The notes beneath the pieces are model-generated. The model did not search any database and was not told where the DNA came from. It worked only from the letters and a program-made list of their open reading frames with translations. From assembly GCF_012371325.1 (NCBI RefSeq), contig NZ_JAAZQX010000013.1, positions 1-64,000 on the forward strand: a stretch of DNA of 64,000 nucleotides, given 5' to 3'. The position numbers were made by a program, and so were the translations under genes. The DNA comes from Acinetobacter sp. A2. GTDB taxonomy: Bacteria; Pseudomonadota; Gammaproteobacteria; Pseudomonadales; Moraxellaceae. Shown here one piece after another: positions 21,304 through 31,025 of this stretch (its first letter is position 1; each line of letters opens with the position of its first letter).

Positions 21304-21330
21304 GCGCTACAAAAAGTGACTGAGGACAGG

Positions 21331-22464
21331 ATGATAGAAGTGGTAGATGGGCAACGTCAGCTCAAGGGTTGTAAACGAATCGTTGTTAAAATCGGATCAT
21401 CTTTACTCACAGCCAATGGGCAAGGTTTAGATTTAGATGCGATCTCGCATTGGGCGGGACAAATTGCAGATCTACACAATGCAGGACACGAAATTATTTT
21501 GGTGTCATCGGGAGCTGTGGCTGAAGGTATGGTGCGAATGAAACTAGAACATCGACCCACTGATCTACCCAGTCTTCAGGCATGCGCTGCCATTGGTCAA
21601 ATGGGACTAATTCAGACTTGGTCAAGTGTGTTGGAAAAACACCAAATTCAAACGGCACAAGTACTTTTAACGCATGATGATCTGGCAGATCGTCGTCGTT
21701 ATTTAAACTCATGTGATGCTTTGCAGAACCTGATTGAATGGCGTGTGATTCCTGTCATTAATGAAAATGACACAGTCTCTACCGATGAAATTCGTTTTGG
21801 CGATAACGACACCTTAGCTGCAATGGTAGCAGGGCAAGTGCATGCAGACTTACTGATCATTTTGACTGATCAGCAAGGCATGTTTGACTCTGACCCACGT
21901 TCTAACCCAAATGCAAAACTGTTCCACACTGTACGTGCTTTAGATGAAAGTCTGTTTGATATGGCAGGTGGTGGTGGTAAGTTTGGCCGTGGCGGTATGC
22001 TGACCAAAGTTCGTGCGGCACGTTTAGCGGCTAAATCGGGCTGTCCGACGTTGATTGCCAGTGGTGAAAGTGACAACGTACTTGCGCGTTTAATGGCGGG
22101 CGAATTGTTGGGTACTTTATTTATTACCGATAATGACCGTATTGCCGCACATCAACAATGGTTGGCAGCACATTTACAAACAGCAGGACGTTTGGTGATT
22201 GATGATGGTGCAGTCAAAGCCATTAAAGAAAATCATCGCAGTTTATTGCCTGTGGGTGTAAAAGCCGTAGAAGGGCATTTTGACCGTGGTGATGTGGTGG
22301 AATGTGTAGATACGCAAGGCCATCGTGTGGCAGTTGGACGTGTAAACTTCAGTTCACGCTCTGCAGACTTAGTCAAAGGTTTGGCATCCGACAAAGTGCA
22401 TCAAGTCTTAGGTGAAGCACGTTCACTGGAGATGATTCACCGCAATCACATGGCAATATACTAG
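21331..22464 (+). CDS. proB: Glutamate 5-kinase, 3' end rebuilt by an integrated element
   Basis: First step of proline synthesis: phosphorylates glutamate with ATP. An amino-acid kinase domain (KIGSSLLT near residue 24; [17 protein letters not shown]) is followed by a C-terminal PUA domain. The ATG at 21331 is preferred (GAGG six bases upstream); a GTG at 21316 is in frame. The last codons lie in the left attachment site of the mobile element, and the stop is TAG. The matching right site at 31003 would code for the same end, ...HMAIY, with TAA. The product is therefore intact, with perhaps one changed residue (N for Y). Confidence 0.95.
22441..22463 (+). repeat. attL core
   Basis: Shares ATCACATGGCAAT plus flanking CGC and TACTA with the right copy, 21 of 23 identical. 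It covers the last codons of proB up to the second base of the stop. Confidence 0.85.
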
Positions 22465-22680: not shown

Positions 22681-23871
22681 ATGCTGTCAAAATTACAAAT
22701 TGATGCGATTAAACCAACCTCTAAGCTGCAAAAAATCCACGACAGCGAGATGCTGTACTTGTTTGTTTCCCCAACAGGTCGCAAAACTTGGAAAGTGCTT
22801 TATACGCTTGGCGGTAAGAAAAACACCATCACTTTGGGCGAATATCCAAAGGTGCTGAATGCTAAAGATGCACGTTTAAGACGTGATGAGATAAAAAAAC
22901 AAATATCAGAGGGCATTAACCCGACTGAGCAAAAACGACAAGAAAAGATTAAAGATTTATCAGAGATGAGTTTTGCCGACTTGATAAGGCTTTACATGGA
23001 AAAAGTCACACCACACAAAAGGGGTGGACGTGTGGAAACCATTATCTTGAGTAACTATATAAAATCATTTCCCCGATTGATGAAAAAACCAGTAAACCAA
23101 CTGGGGCAGCTAGACATGATTCAATTTAGGGATGAACGGCTGAAAAAGGTTAAGGGTGCAACAGTCGCTAGGGATTTAGGCTTATTGAGTGCTGTATTCA
23201 AGTATGCACGACAAGAACTAAGAATTATGACCAACTCCCCATTGGATGACATAGCAAAGCCGAAGCAGTCACCTAGTAGAAATAGACGTATCTCTCAGGA
23301 TGAAATAGACCAAATTTTGCAGGCATTCAAATATGATGGGCGTTCTCAACCAGTCACCAAAAAACAGCAGACCGCTTGGGCATTTCTCTTTGCAATTGAA
23401 ACGGCGATGCGAGCAGGCGAGATAACAGGCTTAAAGTGGGCAGACGTTTACGACAAGCATGTTGAACTTGAAATCACAAAGAACGGTACAGCTAGAAAAG
23501 TCCCTTTATCTAAGCGAGCCATTGAGCTTCTAAGTTATATGCGAGGTATAGATGAAACTGATGTATGTACCGTTAAAAGCAAGGTTGGGGATGGTGAAGT
23601 GGGCAGAGGTGCATTGTCAGCATATTTTAATCAAGTGGTGAAAGGTAAATTAAAAATTAATGACTTAACTTTCCATGACACCCGACATGAAGCTATTTCA
23701 CGGATGGTTAAAACTGCAAAACTCCCAGTAGAGGTACTGGCAAAAATCACAGGTCATAAAACCATTGGTATTTTAATTAATACCTATTACAACCCCGACA
23801 TTGAAGAACTAGCCGACCACCTACACAAAGAGGATGACCCCGACATTATTTTATTTAAAAAGACAGTGTAA
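22681..23871 (+). CDS. int: Tyrosine-type integrase, P4-like (DUF4102 arm domain)
   Basis: Site-specific recombinase for insertion and excision of the element. The N-terminal arm-binding domain covers residues 1-85 (LYLFVSPTGRKTWKVLYTLGG and TLGEYP), with a core-binding domain to about residue 190 and the catalytic domain after it. The catalytic set is R244 (RAGEITGLKW), H332 and R335 (HDTRHEA), a histidine in GHKTIG, and a tyrosine at 369 or 370 (NTYYNP). The 396-aa length is typical. GAGGG lies upstream of the start. It lies just inside attL, as expected for an integrase next to its attachment site. Confidence 0.95.
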   Translation: MLSKLQIDAIKPTSKLQKIHDSEMLYLFVSPTGRKTWKVLYTLGGKKNTITLGEYPKVLNAKDARLRRDEIKKQISEGINPTEQKRQEKIKDLSEMSFADLIRLYMEKVTPHKRGGRVETIILSNYIKSFPRLMKKPVNQLGQLDMIQFRDERLKKVKGATVARDLGLLSAVFKYARQELRIMTNSPLDDIAKPKQSPSRNRRISQDEIDQILQAFKYDGRSQPVTKKQQTAWAFLFAIETAMRAGEITGLKWADVYDKHVELEITKNGTARKVPLSKRAIELLSYMRGIDETDVCTVKSKVGDGEVGRGALSAYFNQVVKGKLKINDLTFHDTRHEAISRMVKTAKLPVEVLAKITGHKTIGILINTYYNPDIEELADHLHKEDDPDIILFKKTV

Positions 23872-23931: not shown

Positions 23932-23984
23932 GCTAAGTCTAGGTTAGCTCCCGAAAGTCGGACACCCAATCCGATTGACTTAGC
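23932..23984 (+). ncRNA. Structured segment between int and the next gene, possible regulatory RNA
   Basis: GCTAAGTC (23932-23939) pairs perfectly with GACTTAGC (23977-23984). Inside it, TCGGA (23958-23962) pairs with TCCGA (23970-23974), extended by A-T and G-T pairs, around a CACCCAA loop. The nested hairpins sit about 30 bases before the start at 24016. P4-like satellites have a structured immunity RNA (CI RNA) in a comparable early leader; calling this one is an inference. Confidence 0.4.
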
Positions 23985-24015
23985 AGCTTATTTTGGGGTG
24001 CTGTGGGAGGCATGA

Positions 24016-24855
24016 ATGGATTTACAACCATTAAACAATTTTGATCGTTTAGCATTATTAGATACGTTAAATATTATCGAGGCATCTGCATTGATAGCAG
24101 GGATTGCGCCTAGTGATATTTCTGAAGATTGGTGGAATGATGAATTGCATTACAACGTAGCGAATCATCGTAAATACCATGATAGTGCAAGAGATGATTT
24201 TTATATTGCCTACAATGCAGTAAAAAGAGCCATACGAGGCGATAAGCTAAAAGCACAAATTGCAGTAGATGAAGCAACTTGCATTGCTTACTTTGCTTCA
24301 CAAAAAGACCACCCCAACGACAATAATAGGGATTGGTTGTGTCGAGGAATGATTGATAGGGAAACACTAATAGACCGAGAGGACTTAAAGAACTGGCTAA
24401 AAGAAATACCTTGCCACCCATCGGCATTTTTTAGTGAGAAGCCACAAGTCGAATATTTAAATAAAAAACACAAAAACTACTCTCCAACATTAGCCCTTAT
24501 GGTTACAGCATGGCTTCATTCAAAGGAAATGGATTTAGCTGGCAATGCGCCAGTAAAGCAGCTAGAAGCCGTTATAAAAGAAATAGGGGACAGGTTTTTG
24601 GATGAAGAAACTCTAACAAATACAATAATTAACAACATGGCAAGCCTAACCAGTCCGAGTGATAAGAGCGGTCGCCCTCCTAAAAAGGAGATTGTAGCCG
24701 ATGTTATTCAAACAGACGAATCAGGCAGCAACACAGATTTAGAATTGATTAAAAAACAATCAAACAGAAGTGTTTTATCGGCTGATTTTTCAGCACTGAT
24801 AGATGGTAATAGTCATAACCAAGTAAATATAGCCGATGATGAGCTACCGTTTTAA
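24016..24855 (+). CDS. Unknown element protein ending in an SSB-like acidic tip
   Basis: A 279-aa soluble protein. The central part (KNWLKEIPCHPSAFF, then LNKKHKNYSPTLALMVTAWL, quoted as NYSPTLALMVTAW) matches the general look of a mobile-element family of unknown function. Residues about 200-270 are low-complexity and probably flexible, and the chain ends ADDELPF. That tip closely resembles the DDDIPF end of bacterial SSB, the docking site for RecO, RecQ, PriA and other partners. GGGAGG lies six bases before the start. It is the first gene after the structured segment. Function unknown. Confidence 0.75.
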   Translation: MDLQPLNNFDRLALLDTLNIIEASALIAGIAPSDISEDWWNDELHYNVANHRKYHDSARDDFYIAYNAVKRAIRGDKLKAQIAVDEATCIAYFASQKDHPNDNNRDWLCRGMIDRETLIDREDLKNWLKEIPCHPSAFFSEKPQVEYLNKKHKNYSPTLALMVTAWLHSKEMDLAGNAPVKQLEAVIKEIGDRFLDEETLTNTIINNMASLTSPSDKSGRPPKKEIVADVIQTDESGSNTDLELIKKQSNRSVLSADFSALIDGNSHNQVNIADDELPF

Positions 24856-25020
24856 GATATTGAATTATAAGTTAAAGCTCATTTTTATATTTTATAAAAA
24901 ATCAATCTAACCAAAAAAATATACAGCCCTATTTTCTAAATGTAGAGCAATTTTTTTGCATAAAAATCCTACACATACTTCACCCAAGCAATAACGCTAA
25001 GTAACTTGCAAGGGTGCAAT

Positions 25021-25314
25021 ATGTCAGCACATGAAAAATACGCTCGCATTAAACAATTAGCGAGCGCACCATCTACCCCCGAAAAAATCTACACCATCAA
25101 GACAGGCGAAAACGCAGGCATGAAACGCAAAGTTAATGCCAAGCCTGAGCGCATCGGACTGTTACCAGTGACCGAAAAAACAATATGGACTTGGGTGCGT
25201 GAGGGGAAATTTCCGAAGCCTTTAAAACTCTCAAGCAACGTCACTGTATGGCGCATGTCAGAGGTCGAGGCGTGGATTGAAGAACAAGCCGACCTTGCAA
25301 CGATGGAGGCTTAA
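25021..25314 (+). CDS. alpA: AlpA-family DNA-binding regulator
   Basis: A 97-aa protein with the AlpA/excisionase-type winged helix: LLPVTEKTIWTWVREGKFPKPLKL, quoted as TEKTIWTWVREGKFPKPLKL, then VTVWRMSEVEAWIEE. In P4-like elements such proteins activate or regulate integrase and act in excision. The ATG at 25021 is chosen (AAGGG upstream); a TTG at 25006 is in frame. It is preceded by an AT-rich gap and probably starts the transcript that runs to the DUF3987 gene. Confidence 0.85.
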   Translation: MSAHEKYARIKQLASAPSTPEKIYTIKTGENAGMKRKVNAKPERIGLLPVTEKTIWTWVREGKFPKPLKLSSNVTVWRMSEVEAWIEEQADLATMEA

Positions 25315-25317
25315 TCA

Positions 25318-25533
25318 ATGAATAACACTCAATTAAAACAAGTCCTAGCACACCTCAAGCAAGGCAAGACCATTTCACAAGCTGAAGCTATCGACCTTTT
25401 CAACTGCTACCGCCTGAGCGCAATTATTAGGCGTTTACGCAATGCAGGCTATGACATTGTGACCCATAACGAGCGCAATAAGTCAGGCATTGGCAGACAT
25501 GCACGTTATGAACTTCGGGAGGTGGCAGCATGA
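25318..25533 (+). CDS. Small helix-turn-helix protein
   Basis: A 71-aa protein with one HTH: LKQGKTISQAEAIDLFNCYRLSAIIRRLRNAGYDI (in part: ISQAEAIDLFNCYRLSAIIR), then a wing-like basic strand. It resembles the HTH_39-type domain common in phages and islands. It starts three bases after alpA stops and overlaps the next gene by four bases, so it is co-translated. It may be a second regulator or a replication accessory factor. Confidence 0.75.
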   Translation: MNNTQLKQVLAHLKQGKTISQAEAIDLFNCYRLSAIIRRLRNAGYDIVTHNERNKSGIGRHARYELREVAA

Positions 25534-25769
25534 AAGATTTTGTATTGGCTTCATACCGACCAATGAATGACACAGAAACTGAAGCGCATTTAATCGTGAA
25601 TGATGATGCAATGGTTTTTGTTGAACTTGATGCGGTGGATGGTGCAGAGCTAGAGATTTTGGCGGCTCATGCACAATTAATGAAAAACCCCGATGCGGTG
25701 GACGTTGTGGCATTTCACTACGGCAGCTTAAAGACCTTGTTTGACAAGTTGGCAGAGGTGTCAGCATGA
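25530..25769 (+). CDS. Unknown element protein, 79 aa
   Basis: Acidic small protein with a patch of alternating hydrophobic residues (AMVFVELDAVDGAELEILAA) and no cysteine, membrane segment or known motif. It overlaps its neighbours on both sides by four bases (ATGA), which strongly suggests a translated gene. Confidence 0.65.
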   Translation: MKDFVLASYRPMNDTETEAHLIVNDDAMVFVELDAVDGAELEILAAHAQLMKNPDAVDVVAFHYGSLKTLFDKLAEVSA

Positions 25770-25963
25770 GCGAAATTATAGATTTTAAATCCGAAAATGA
25801 TGCAGACAGCCAACCCATGACCGATGACGAAATGCGGTTAGCGAATATCTACGACATTGCAGTCGGTTTGATTATTGATATTGAGGAGGGGCGTATTTTC
25901 TCAATGGCAGAAATCAAAGCACAGATGATTGAAGTCCTAGAGATTATTCAAGAGGAGTTATAA
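25766..25963 (+). CDS. Unknown element protein, 65 aa
   Basis: Very acidic small protein (SEIIDFKSENDADSQPMTDDE) with a helical C-terminal half. The negative charge is similar to DNA-mimic or anti-host proteins, but that is only a compositional resemblance. The ATG overlaps the previous stop by four bases. GAGGAG near its 3' end serves the next gene. Confidence 0.6.
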   Translation: MSEIIDFKSENDADSQPMTDDEMRLANIYDIAVGLIIDIEEGRIFSMAEIKAQMIEVLEIIQEEL

Positions 25964-25965
25964 GC

Positions 25966-26352
25966 ATGAAAGAGCTATTTTTTGAAATGTTTAAGGGACT
26001 ACTTCTAGGCATGTGTTTTGTTTTGTTTTGCTTTGTTATTGCAAGTCTAAGCCGTTCCGCTTATGCTGTAGACCTCTCAAAATCTAACAGCGTTACCCCA
26101 CAGCGTCATTGTGGTTTTATTGTGCCTAAGTTTTGCAAAGCCTCTCAAGCTGTGCAGAAAACAAGCGCAAGCGTTTCAGCTACGCAAACAAGGCTGCAAT
26201 CCCTCTATGAGGGGCAGACACGACAAAATAAGGCAGCAATGCCGAATATGTCGGGCGATTCTGTTAGATCGAGAGTGATGCCCCTCGCCTTAATTTCTCA
26301 AGTTAAGCCGAATCTCAACTCAAAACTAACAGGAGGCAATTCTCATGCCTAA
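25966..26352 (+). CDS. Unknown element protein with an N-terminal membrane or signal segment
   Basis: A 128-aa protein. A strongly hydrophobic segment (residues about 8-28, GLLLGMCFVLFCFVIASL) is followed by SRSAYA, a plausible signal-peptidase site. The remaining 95 residues are basic, Q/S/T-rich and contain two cysteines (RHCGF, KFCKA). It would be in or across the inner membrane, unlike the other genes of the element. A good GAGGAG precedes the start. Function unknown. Confidence 0.6.
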   Translation: MKELFFEMFKGLLLGMCFVLFCFVIASLSRSAYAVDLSKSNSVTPQRHCGFIVPKFCKASQAVQKTSASVSATQTRLQSLYEGQTRQNKAAMPNMSGDSVRSRVMPLALISQVKPNLNSKLTGGNSHA

Positions 26353-26650
26353 ACAAATCAATTCTACAAATGCACCTAAAAAATACGATGCAGGCGACAT
26401 GCACGACATTCAGTCGTTGGCTGCGTATGACATGAACTGGATGCAAAGCGCACTAAACCGAGTACGCCGTGACTTCATCAAGTTAAGTGTGGACTTACAG
26501 CAGCAAGGCATACATTCATGCCATTTCGATGAACTAAAAACCGCACTGGAAATGTATAGCTACCTAGCAGAGGAACGTCATAGCTTCCATGTGGAAATGT
26601 CAGAACAATATGAAAAAGAGTGGCAGAACACCAAAGGGGGTGCGGAATGA
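26345..26650 (+). CDS. Unknown element protein, 101 aa
   Basis: Soluble helical protein (HDIQSLAAYDMNWMQSALNRVRRDFIKL in part: AAYDMNWMQSALNRVRRDF), no known motif. It overlaps the previous gene by eight bases and the DUF3987 gene by four, so it is part of the same translational chain. Confidence 0.65.
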   Translation: MPKQINSTNAPKKYDAGDMHDIQSLAAYDMNWMQSALNRVRRDFIKLSVDLQQQGIHSCHFDELKTALEMYSYLAEERHSFHVEMSEQYEKEWQNTKGGAE

Positions 26651-28743
26651 ATGCAAAACACCCCGATATTTTAAACAAGCCAATACCTCTAGCAGTTAAT
26701 ATCGACCCAGTAACAGGGCATCGGGTAGAGTTTTTTCAGCTAGAAGATTTTGCGACAAACTGTATTGATGAGGGCAATTTTAAAGTAAAGCCTGAGAGCT
26801 ATATCTACTCTAAATTGCCTAATTATAACTGCGAAAATTGCGAAGCCTACCCCTTAGTGAATCCAAAACAATTGAGCGAGGTTATAGGCTATGCAGTCAG
26901 AGGTACAGCAAGAAAATACGACACCACCACAACACCATTTAAAGAAATAGACAGCCAACAAGTGTCATTCATTATTGGTAAAAAAGGATTGTTTGCAAGC
27001 GGTTTAAATAAACCTCATTTATCGTATGTAGTCGGTACAAATGATATGGATTTATTTATTCAACTTGCTAAGGCAGGCAAAGCGGTTTTGCTGCATCAAA
27101 GTTTAGATGAAGCGTACAAGATTTTAAACAGTGGTATGCCTAAAACTGTTTTTAGATTGATTGCAGGCAAGATTCCACCAAAAGAAAATACTGATTTATT
27201 TGTTCAAGTGGATGACTCTTTTAGAGCGTTTACCTCTCAACAAATAGAAATGTTTTTTCTTGAGAAACGGAAGCAAATTATTGAATCAGGTGCATTCAAT
27301 CAAGATGCAGATTCTCAACACTGGGGCGAGTTGCTACCACTTCAACAAGCGGAATCAGTACCAAGCAACCCTTATCCTATTGATGCACTGCCATTGTTAG
27401 CAAGGGAGGCAGTTTTAGCTATTTCCGAGCATGTGCAATCACCAATAGCCATGACTGCACAATGTGTTATTGGTGCAATGTCACATATTGCTCAAGCCAA
27501 AGTAAATGCACCCGATAGATTCAAAGCACACGGCGAGCCATGCAGTCTATTTTTACTCACAGAGGGGCAAAGTGGCAGCCGTAAGAGTACAAGCAAAAAT
27601 CTAGCAGATCGTGCGATTTTGGACTATGAGCGCAAGCAGTATGAAATATACCGAGCCGATTTAGAGCAATGGAAAAGTGGTCAAGCAGGATTACCCAAAA
27701 AAGACCGTGAGGCGTACTGTGCAGAGAATCCACCACCGAATGACCCTAGCACCCTATACAGCGACATAACCCTTGAATCTATTGCAGGATTGTTTATTGA
27801 TGGAATCTTGCAAAATGCTTCTATTTCAAGTGATGAAGCAGGGCAATTTTTCGGTGGGCATACTATGAAAGCCGATACACGTAACCAAGCATTAGGCGGT
27901 TATACAAAACTGTTTGATGATGGGTATGTGGAACGTACACGCTCAAAGTCAAACCTCAATGGCAGTGGTCGGGCGCATGACGTTCGAGTGACGTTTAATC
28001 TACAAGGGCAGCGTGAAGTTTTAGACAATGCCTTAAAAGACCCAGTGCTAAGGGGGCAAGGTTTTTTACCTAGATTCATCTTAACCATTCCTGAAAACTT
28101 GGCAGGCACACGCCTACAAGATGCAGCATATCGCAATAAAAACGCCAACAAAGACCACAGGCTTATTGCTTACTGGACACGGTGCGAATCATTGCTCGAT
28201 AGCTGCCCACAGGTACAAACAGGGCATGAGCTACACAATGGGCGGTATGTCATCCCTATGAATGAGGAAGCCATAGCGATTGATACAGAATTTTATAACG
28301 TCATTGAGTCGCTACAACGTGCAGGCAAGCGTTTTGAGTACCTACAGGCGTTTGCGAGCCGTGCTAGTCAATTGGCACGCCGTTTAGCCACTGTATTTGC
28401 TTATTTTGAGGGACTGCAACAGATTGATGGCAAAACCTTGCAAGGAGCTTGTGAGGTCGTCAAACACTCATTAAATGAATGGGCAATGTATGCAGAAATT
28501 GAGGTTAAGGCGGAAAGTGATGCTCAAAAGCTGATTAAGTGGCTTATCGGTAAATGTGTGCAGCAAAAAACAGACCGACTTACTTACTCTTACATGCAGA
28601 CATCATGCCCAAGACCGATGCAGAAAAACAATCATCTTTTAGAAATGGTTATTCAACAGTTAGAGGATTCTAACCATATCAAAATTGAATCGTTGGGGCG
28701 TACTCGGTACGTTGTAATTAATCCTTTATTACTGAAATCGTGA
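26647..28743 (+). CDS. DUF3987 primase/helicase-like replication protein
   Basis: A 698-aa protein with a P-loop GQSGSRKST at residues 307-315 (lysine 313) in the DUF3987 (YfjI-like) domain. The motif DEAGQFFGGH further on is a likely Walker B. The N-terminal 250 residues are a separate domain, with CENCEAYPL near residue 45 and a Toprim-like or unknown region. Such proteins serve as replication initiator/primase-helicases in satellites and islands. The start at 26647 overlaps the previous stop (ATGA) and has a strong G-rich Shine-Dalgarno. The iteron cluster starts at its stop codon. Confidence 0.85.
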   Translation: MNAKHPDILNKPIPLAVNIDPVTGHRVEFFQLEDFATNCIDEGNFKVKPESYIYSKLPNYNCENCEAYPLVNPKQLSEVIGYAVRGTARKYDTTTTPFKEIDSQQVSFIIGKKGLFASGLNKPHLSYVVGTNDMDLFIQLAKAGKAVLLHQSLDEAYKILNSGMPKTVFRLIAGKIPPKENTDLFVQVDDSFRAFTSQQIEMFFLEKRKQIIESGAFNQDADSQHWGELLPLQQAESVPSNPYPIDALPLLAREAVLAISEHVQSPIAMTAQCVIGAMSHIAQAKVNAPDRFKAHGEPCSLFLLTEGQSGSRKSTSKNLADRAILDYERKQYEIYRADLEQWKSGQAGLPKKDREAYCAENPPPNDPSTLYSDITLESIAGLFIDGILQNASISSDEAGQFFGGHTMKADTRNQALGGYTKLFDDGYVERTRSKSNLNGSGRAHDVRVTFNLQGQREVLDNALKDPVLRGQGFLPRFILTIPENLAGTRLQDAAYRNKNANKDHRLIAYWTRCESLLDSCPQVQTGHELHNGRYVIPMNEEAIAIDTEFYNVIESLQRAGKRFEYLQAFASRASQLARRLATVFAYFEGLQQIDGKTLQGACEVVKHSLNEWAMYAEIEVKAESDAQKLIKWLIGKCVQQKTDRLTYSYMQTSCPRPMQKNNHLLEMVIQQLEDSNHIKIESLGRTRYVVINPLLLKS

Positions 28744-28943
28744 CTAAGTGACTAAGTTAAGCCGAAACCCTTATACAGCAAGGCTTTTCACTTAGCAGTC
28801 AGCAAAAATGGCTTTGACTAAATGACTAAGTGGATGACTAAACCACGTATTCATTTAGTCACTTAGTCATTGTGATATTTAGTGACTGCTAAACGTAAAC
28901 CCATATATATAAAGGCATACAGAGCAATTTAGTCATTTAGTCA
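28741..28943. repeat. Iteron cluster, probable replication origin of the element
   Basis: The 8-mer TGACTAAR occurs on the plus strand at 28741, 28749, 28815, 28823 and 28835, and inverted (YTTAGTCA) at 28854, 28862, 28928 and 28936; a variant is at 28878. Several copies are in tandem with an 8-base period, and the two orientations face each other. The first copy overlaps the stop codon of the DUF3987 gene. The layout matches iteron origins beside primase-type initiators in P4 and PICI elements. Confidence 0.7.
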
Positions 28944-28980
28944 GCTTTTTAGATAAATGAAATATATTGAGAATTGAACA

Positions 28981-29307
28981 ATGGCGAACGTGAATAAATC
29001 AATCGTGATGGGTGTGCTAGGTCGTGACCCTGAAACAAAACAATTTCCCAATGGTGGCAGCGTTACTAATTTCAGCGTTGCAACTACCGACCACTGGAAA
29101 GACAAAGCCACTGGCGAGCGCAAAAGTGCTACAGAATGGCACAGAATCACCACTAGCAACCGATTAGGCGAGATTGCGAGCAAGTACCTCAAGAAAGGCA
29201 GCAAGGTTTATATTGAGGGCAGCATGAGAACAAGGAAGTGGAAAGACCAAAGCGGTGCAGATCGTGAAGTCACAGAGATAAAGGCGGATATTCTGCAATT
29301 GCTGTGA
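28981..29307 (+). CDS. ssb: Single-stranded DNA-binding protein lacking the acidic tip
   Basis: A 108-aa SSB. The OB-fold is complete: MANVNKSIVMGVLGRDPETK, then TNFSVATTDHWKD, EWHRITTSNRLGEIASKYLKKG, and VYIEGSMRTRKW near residue 80. The chain ends DILQLL right after the fold, without the flexible linker and DDDIPF tip needed to recruit partner proteins. Host SSBs are about 170-190 aa. It follows the iteron region, consistent with a role in element replication. A terminator comes 22 bases later. Confidence 0.92.
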   Translation: MANVNKSIVMGVLGRDPETKQFPNGGSVTNFSVATTDHWKDKATGERKSATEWHRITTSNRLGEIASKYLKKGSKVYIEGSMRTRKWKDQSGADREVTEIKADILQLL

Positions 29308-29357: not shown

Positions 29358-29550
29358 ATTCCTTAGATTCGATTAGATCGGCATAGTCTAATTAGACAAA
29401 ACCTTAAACATGATTCAAACCTAGACCTTGATTGCCAACCTAAATCATTAGTGAAATTTCATATTGAAAAACACTGTAAAATGACTAAAACACAGGGTAC
29501 ATAAGGCATTGAGCCTGATTTAATACTTGTGAATTGAGGTGCAGTTATTT

Positions 29551-30150
29551 ATGCAAAAAACACACAGTCAGGTTGAGGATTGTTTGAGCTTAGACAGCCG
29601 AGTCATGGCTCGATATAAGGTATTTGATGGTGGAGGAAGTAACTCATGGGCATGGCGAAAAGGCGACTCTCAAGAAGTATTTTCATCTATAACATATCAC
29701 TACGATAACGGCGGTTTAGTATTAAGCTACACATGCAACGAGCAGCAGCACCGCTATTTAGTGGATGTTGTCACCACACCATGCAACTACGGTGGCAAAC
29801 GCTATTGGTTTAATTGCCCAAAGTGTTCTAAGCGAGTTGCAAAGCTATACCTACGCAATTCAATGTTTTTTTGTAGAACTTGCCACAAGCTAAATTACAT
29901 GACCCAACAAAGCTGCAAATTAGAAAGCACACGAGCAGGCATGTATAAAATCAGGAATAAACTTAACTGGCAGTATGACACCGCATTCATGAAGTCGTGG
30001 CATAAGTTGAAGCCTAAAGGGATGCACCATTCAACCTACAACAGATTGGTGCAGAGGCATGACGAGCTAGAGCGAAAGTCAGAGCAATATTGCATTGCAA
30101 ACTTTCATGCCTTTATGAATAGACATGGTTTAAAACCATCATGGGAATAA
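29551..30150 (+). CDS. Zinc-ribbon protein of a mobile-element family
   Basis: A 199-aa protein with a CPKC...CRTC zinc ribbon: TPCNYGGKRYWFNCPKC near residue 85, then FFCRTCHKLNY near residue 115, then KPKGMHHSTYNRL. This layout matches a common uncharacterised protein family found beside integrases and replication genes in islands of many proteobacteria. The start at 29551 is chosen (GAGG 12 bases upstream); a GTG at 29539 is in frame. It has its own intergenic region. Function unknown; nucleic-acid binding is likely. Confidence 0.75.
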   Translation: MQKTHSQVEDCLSLDSRVMARYKVFDGGGSNSWAWRKGDSQEVFSSITYHYDNGGLVLSYTCNEQQHRYLVDVVTTPCNYGGKRYWFNCPKCSKRVAKLYLRNSMFFCRTCHKLNYMTQQSCKLESTRAGMYKIRNKLNWQYDTAFMKSWHKLKPKGMHHSTYNRLVQRHDELERKSEQYCIANFHAFMNRHGLKPSWE

Positions 30151-31002: not shown

Positions 31003-31025
31003 CGCTATCACATGGCAATCTACTA
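31003..31025 (+). repeat. attR core
   Basis: Second copy of the attachment core. Read in the proB frame it codes HMAIY and a TAA stop, so it appears to be the original 3' end of the target gene. Confidence 0.85.

Follow-up and report, generated by a model that had tools for sequence, protein, structure and literature searches.

Can a mobile element divide the function of SSB between two of its proteins, one that coats DNA and another that carries the tip through which partners are recruited? Genome maintenance in bacteria relies on the C-terminal tip of SSB as its main docking peptide. The role of this peptide (SSB-Ct) in docking SSB-interacting enzymes is described in two earlier papers (PMC10164576, PMC5872125). 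The question is raised by an element within a stretch of 64,000 nucleotides from Acinetobacter sp. A2 (the whole of the DNA analysed, hereafter the window), for which the original prediction was that a tailless SSB may coat the element DNA while a different protein of 279 aa (p279), which ends in an SSB-like tip, may recruit or block host repair and replication partners.

A small integrative element at the 3′ end of proB

The element spans approximately 8.6 kb of a 2.70-Mb Acinetobacter genome and has all of its genes on the forward strand. It is integrated at the 3′ end of proB between 23-nt direct repeats that are 91% identical to one another. ORFs were called mechanically (ATG, GTG or TTG starts with a greedy overlap filter), and the principal features are as follows.

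21316-22464: proB (TIGR01027, 2.3e-127)
22441-22463, + strand: putative attL, the 23-nt direct repeat at the proB 3′ end, 91% identical to 31003-31025
22681-23871, + strand: tyrosine integrase, 396 aa (Pfam Phage_integrase 5.5e-22, Arm-DNA-bind_3)
23932-23998, + strand: int-alpA RNA (RF02996; 40.5 bits against a gathering threshold of 35.8)
24016-24855, + strand: p279, the integrase-adjacent protein of 279 aa (core, residues 1 to roughly 220; variable tail reaching 277; tip ADDELPF at 273-279)
24835-24855, + strand: codons for the tip DDELPF plus stop, with synonymous differences between homologues
25021-25314, + strand: AlpA-family regulator (PF05930, 7.1e-09)
25318-25533, + strand: winged-helix protein, HTH_39 (PF14090, 3.3e-16)
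26620-28743, + strand: replication protein of the DUF3987 primase/helicase-like type, listed at 707 aa (PF13148, 9.9e-47; phrog_2373, DNA helicase)
28981-29307, + strand: tailless SSB of the element, its 108 aa comprising the OB fold alone (PF00436, 1e-33)
29539-30150, + strand: ORF of 203 aa conserved between elements (the L074 copy is 95% identical, those of L049 and L056 41%)
31003-31025, + strand: putative attR, the 23-nt direct repeat that pairs with 22441-22463

Small ORFs lying between the winged-helix and DUF3987 genes are also part of the element. Judged by its gene content, this is a small integrative satellite-type element of an already known kind, and a search of 175 genomes from the genus with its DUF3987 protein gave matches at E ≤ 0.001 in 34, its own genome counted. 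The int-alpA RNA lies upstream of the p279 gene and ends 17 nt before its start. The same RNA is found upstream of the homologues described below at loci L098, L136 and L140, all of which carry the tip, and at another locus, L138, it precedes a protein in the same slot that is unrelated to p279. A C4 antisense RNA (RF01695) occurs in the small-ORF region of two related elements (L138:4765-4853 and L140:4880-4968) and has no match within the window element.

p279 has an SSB-like tip and no recognised OB fold

Translation of the ORF at 24016-24855 (+) bears out the 279-aa length and the terminal ADDELPF: the protein ends NQVNIADDELPF followed by the stop codon, its last residues being NIADDELPF. 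The resemblance to an SSB tip also holds in this genome, where the host SSB ends ADLDDDLPF (DLDDDLPF). As the original prediction stated, p279 is not itself an SSB. It has the acidic, PF-ending C-terminal tip of that family and lacks its OB fold (PF00436), and no SSB match was found in Pfam, PHROGs, NCBIfam or PDB sequences. Nor did anything else match above cut-off in these libraries or in PADLOC, and a wider profile of the p279 family produced no significant matches to the PDB. Two Pfam hits, to arginyl-tRNA-synthetase (0.0044) and OB_RNB (0.041), were discarded as each lies below the cut-off of its entry. The AlphaFold prediction for p279 has a mean pLDDT of 36, and the tail is probably flexible, to judge from its lack of conservation. 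At its N-terminal end p279 resembles proteins that occupy this slot in other elements (E 6e-07 at an hhalign probability of 92%), but those sharing this domain at the profile level (L034, L035 and L040) have no tip. The close p279 family therefore appears, from these searches, to be new to the libraries scanned, whereas the element that carries it is not.

Distribution of the tip among homologues

Conservation of the tip among homologues of p279, the check that had been proposed, holds for every intact close homologue but not for one frame-shifted close homologue (L097) or for any of 13 distant ones. Proteins without the acidic-PF motif, which had been named as evidence against the idea, are thus found outside the close clade and not among its intact members. 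No other genome among the 175 searched in the genus has p279. Across 348 genomes of the family, there were five further homologues at E ≤ 4.5e-17 (six with the window's own), while the best match in 41 other family genomes had an E value of 0.018 or weaker and was treated as noise; 116 relatives of genome G252 yielded no new close homologue. The intact close homologues that bear the tip are p279 itself, L094, L095, L096, L098 and L136/L140, the others being 28-32% identical over the core and coming from four further genomes and a single lineage of viral contigs. They end KADIDFDIPF (L094), KTDDPFDIPF (L095), PINSDNDVPF (L096), PNPLDDELPF (L098) and IASLDDDLPF (L136/L140), and L094 and L095 are sisters with cores that are 86% identical. 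L097 stops early, at 244 aa, and a shifted frame downstream reads EEKDNGDIPF-stop (GDIPF). The host SSB gene of the same genome (G309; locus L110) is likewise frame-shifted near its end, so indel errors may be present in the G309 assembly.

L136 and L140 are near-identical elements that were found by scanning viral contigs with the element SSB. Their p279 homologue is 30% identical over 221 aa, and its last seven residues are those of the SSB from the window's genome. Neither element has a DUF3987 match, and the tip is therefore not tied to the DUF3987 primase. A 297-bp remnant (L144:5998-6293), 99% identical to the tail end of the L136 p279-homologue gene and the DNA downstream of it, sits elsewhere on the same 118-kb contig as that gene. 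A contig scan with the L136 protein recovered its own two contigs and one remnant and nothing else, and scans with p279, alignment A1 and the L095, L098 and L105 proteins gave no matches.

Distant homologues were drawn from searches of 390 genomes of the order (G351, G664), 369 of the class and 398 of the phylum, and from S. meliloti pSymB, the sole match in a plasmid and phage tblastn search. The full tip is present in none of the 13 that have an uninterrupted end (L104, L105, L106 and L121-L130, of which L123-L127 are five weak partial matches; L131 was dropped because of an internal stop). Seven of the eight stronger distant homologues end soon after an 'NW..GG' motif, at the point where the tail of the close clade begins. 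The exception, L104, does have a tail and ends in a near-tip, GEDEEPPFL; another near-tip, GENSIPF, ends L130. It follows that the tip is not needed for core function, and tail and tip together are most readily understood as a gain made inside a single clade.

Chance, selection and the form of the tip

A single tip could be luck. When the 2.7-Mb genome was searched in all frames for codons specifying [DE][DE]xPF-stop, there were four matches versus five for a backward control, which is the chance level. Two of the four are p279 and the host SSB; of the others, one is interrupted by an in-frame stop and one lies in an open stretch of 47 codons. The window itself has one match, and 100 shuffles gave a mean of 0.07 with at least one match in 7 of 100. 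With the raw count at chance, conservation becomes the decisive test. Only five of 682 distinct ORFs (at least 100 aa, from 56 sequences including the window and excluding viral loci L135-L141) end in PF, and all five are p279 or its homologues, which leads us to reject chance as the explanation for the conserved tip. When the viral loci were scanned apart for ORFs of at least 80 aa, three more came to light: the p279 homologues of L136 and L140 and the SSB of L141. Pooled over five representatives that are not sisters, 34% of core positions (706/2089) and 18% of tail positions (81/440, computed without the last two residues) are identical, and PF is identical in all 10 of their 10 pairs. Position -4 is acidic and position -3 aliphatic in all of the close homologues. 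Because the tip codons differ synonymously (CCG, CCT, CCC and CCA; TTT and TTC; GAG and GAA), selection would act on the peptide. We read the tip as having been kept by such selection rather than by chance, and part of both its conservation and its match to the host could reflect inheritance among related lineages.

The pattern of residues bears on two possible roles for the tip. A C-terminal LPF might serve as a ClpXP signal that keeps p279 short-lived: the passages of PMC5143411 on this subject describe how, in some strains of Streptococcus mutans, the LPF at the end of SsbA acts as a degron for ClpXP, but they also report that DDDLPF is no degron in E. coli, the ClpXP of which ignored it. 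Given that p279 homologues with IPF and VPF keep the acidic residue at -4, a pattern that fits SSB-Ct rather than LPF, we consider a degron highly improbable. Another idea is that the acidic tip folds back on a nucleic-acid-binding face of the core, and autoinhibitory fold-back of this sort is known for SSB-type acidic tails. Such an intramolecular contact would leave the strict terminal PF and the likeness to host SSB tips unexplained, however, and is in our view very unlikely.

Match to host SSB tips

The host SSB ends DDDLPF in genomes G000, G117 and G176, DDDIPF in G252 and G279, and DDDMPF in G215. In four of five intact pairs, the element protein has the same residue at -3 as the host SSB (Leu is shared in G000 and in G176, and Ile in G252 and G279, which form a sister pair), the mismatch being G215, with Val in the element protein versus Met in the host SSB. 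G309 falls outside this count as both of its genes are frame-shifted, and both read Ile at -3 in another frame. The host match is suggestive only, since G252 and G279 belong to one genus and carry sister proteins and since all of the lineages are related. It touches on the view of p279 as a decoy or inhibitor, in which the tip competes for host SSB partners (nucleases, RecQ/RecO) and so spares the element DNA or its intermediates. A competitor would be expected to look much like p279, with a tip and no recognised OB fold, and the tip does match that of the host SSB. Host SSB is, however, abundant in the cell, such that a global action would require high expression, or else the effect would have to be local, and we regard this role as unlikely.

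The tip and the tailless SSB vary independently

The element SSB (108 aa) stops at the end of its OB fold, just as the original prediction had it: PF00436 covers residues 4-107, the protein ends KADILQLL (DILQLL) with no in-frame tail, and both linker and acidic tip are missing. Over the OB fold it shares 67% identity with the host SSB, and it has the appearance of an SSB of the host type that has been truncated where the fold ends. Related elements do not have SSBs with tips of their own, an outcome that would have counted against a split function. All of the intact element SSBs (12 of 12 loci, 10 distinct proteins) are tailless and end QLL or QLI. This count leaves out L042, L043 and L070, which have broken SSB fragments only, and L135, which is on the same contig as L040; it is drawn from loci fetched by a DUF3987 or SSB match, so that elements with neither are under-sampled. 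In a short SSB of 113 aa on a viral contig (L141:8001-8342), by contrast, the OB fold is followed immediately by a tip, GDSELPF; at 50% identity and on a different type of phage contig, this SSB was not counted as an element SSB of this kind. The genome that houses the sister element has a second SSB without an acidic tip, which ends MQMLDSAPQANSY (L116, G117:C14).

A split SSB, in which p279 would supply the tip in trans as the partner of the tailless coat, would account for these uniformly tailless proteins and for the presence of both features in the window and also in L136/L140, where they are much diverged (30% identity for p279). Against it, these are the only two with the tip among the eight lineages of the element in which an ORF of at least 150 aa lies next to the integrase; the other six (L040, L044, L056, L060, L074 and L138) have a tailless SSB and no tip. 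Outside the eight are L055 and L139, with no integrase-adjacent ORF of that length, and L137, which begins inside the element. The closest sister element, L074, is among the tipless lineages even though its integrase, AlpA and SSB are 90%, 96% and 94% identical to those of the window. Its integrase-adjacent product is a DUF6387 protein of 290 aa (PF19924, 4.9e-21) in which no similarity to p279 was found. Proteins in the integrase-alpA gap are very diverse among related elements (loci L032-L078). None of the 55 distinct ORFs of at least 150 aa between integrase and primase at 32 loci ends in PF, and the gap ORF of L071 ends KEPI, a loose match to the tip. Conversely, no SSB gene was found in the 18.5 kb of the L094, L095 and L097 loci, the first two of which are tipped (L096 and L098 stop at contig ends and are uninformative on SSB absence). 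A tailless SSB so similar to that of the host could, moreover, assemble with it into mixed tetramers and use the tips of the host subunits. The rule that the tip always accompanies a tailless SSB is therefore rejected and an obligate split SSB is not supported; across the loci compared, the two features vary independently. The comparison lends no support to the proposed division of labour, and we judge an interacting pair to be quite unlikely, though co-occurrence in two lineages would be compatible with a facultative link.

A putative docking peptide for host enzymes

The best reading, to which we attach a probability of roughly 0.6, is that the integrase-adjacent protein p279 has acquired a mimic of SSB-Ct through which it would dock onto SSB-interacting proteins of the host. 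It draws on the sequence of the tip, on protein-level conservation in five genomes and one viral-contig lineage (five non-sister lineages), and on independence from the element SSB. One p279 clade would have acquired a variable tail ending in the mimic [DNF][DE][LIV]PF-COOH, on a core that may work with the integrase and AlpA on element DNA, to judge by position only. The tip would then dock into the SSB-Ct pocket of at least one host protein, of the PriA, RecG, RecQ, RecO, chi or DnaG type, and the docked enzymes would be brought to the excised or replicating element, or locally competed off the host SSB, or both. Hence p279 probably plugs into host DNA-handling enzymes via a tip that would be an add-on to whichever SSB is present, and not the missing half of the element SSB.

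A more specific and tentative version is that the clade consists of dedicated SSB-tip adaptors which copy the host docking peptide, are tuned to the host tip, and allow the element to place host replication-restart or repair enzymes on its DNA regardless of the coating SSB. If this is true, an element that combines such an adaptor with a tailless SSB would enjoy a recruitment monopoly, with tips on its adaptor only and not on its coat. More generally, by carrying only the docking peptide of SSB, a mobile-element protein would have a simple means of hijacking or blocking this hub. Among the matches listed from the open-access literature, none described a mobile-element protein other than an SSB in which an SSB tip is conserved, and no non-SSB protein with the tip appears in the SSB-Ct passages of three papers (PMC7861564, PMC8744291, PMC11981726).

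Comparison with known systems

In common with SSB-Ct (DDDIPF), the end of p279 has acidic residues, an aliphatic residue at -3 and a terminal Pro-Phe after a variable tail, but its tip sits on a core in which no OB fold is recognised and which belongs to a protein family that has no name. Deinococcus DdrB, according to the passages of PMC3834827 that concern it, is likewise a non-standard protein with an SSB-like C-terminal motif, but is itself an ssDNA-binding and annealing protein. The motif is described there as not needed for radioresistance, and an SSB-like end can therefore be dispensable for the phenotype tested, which counts against our reading of the tip. The window also agrees with the int-alpA RNA elements (RF02996) in having the RNA between integrase and alpA, directly upstream of p279. 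RF02996 is, however, a family of the RNA and not of the adjacent protein, and nothing was found on the protein beside the int-alpA RNA among the literature matches listed for that term.

A similar arrangement is that of the PICMI satellites, described in PMC10803314. Both are small and share the order integrase, adjacent gene, alpA and DUF3987 primase, and the window element has the integrase, AlpA and DUF3987/DUF5906 primase by which PICMI are recognised. It differs in lying at the proB 3′ end in Acinetobacter instead of next to fis in Vibrionaceae and in carrying an SSB, and its satellite nature is putative. The int-alpA gap of PICMI, according to that paper, is filled by 13 families of unknown function (iolg/icg), so that there too the adjacent genes are of many kinds, and the iolg of PICMI115 is required for excision by a mechanism that is not known. 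The likeness of p279 to iolg/icg is one of gene position only, and its tip may offer a handle on the genes that satellites carry between int and alpA.
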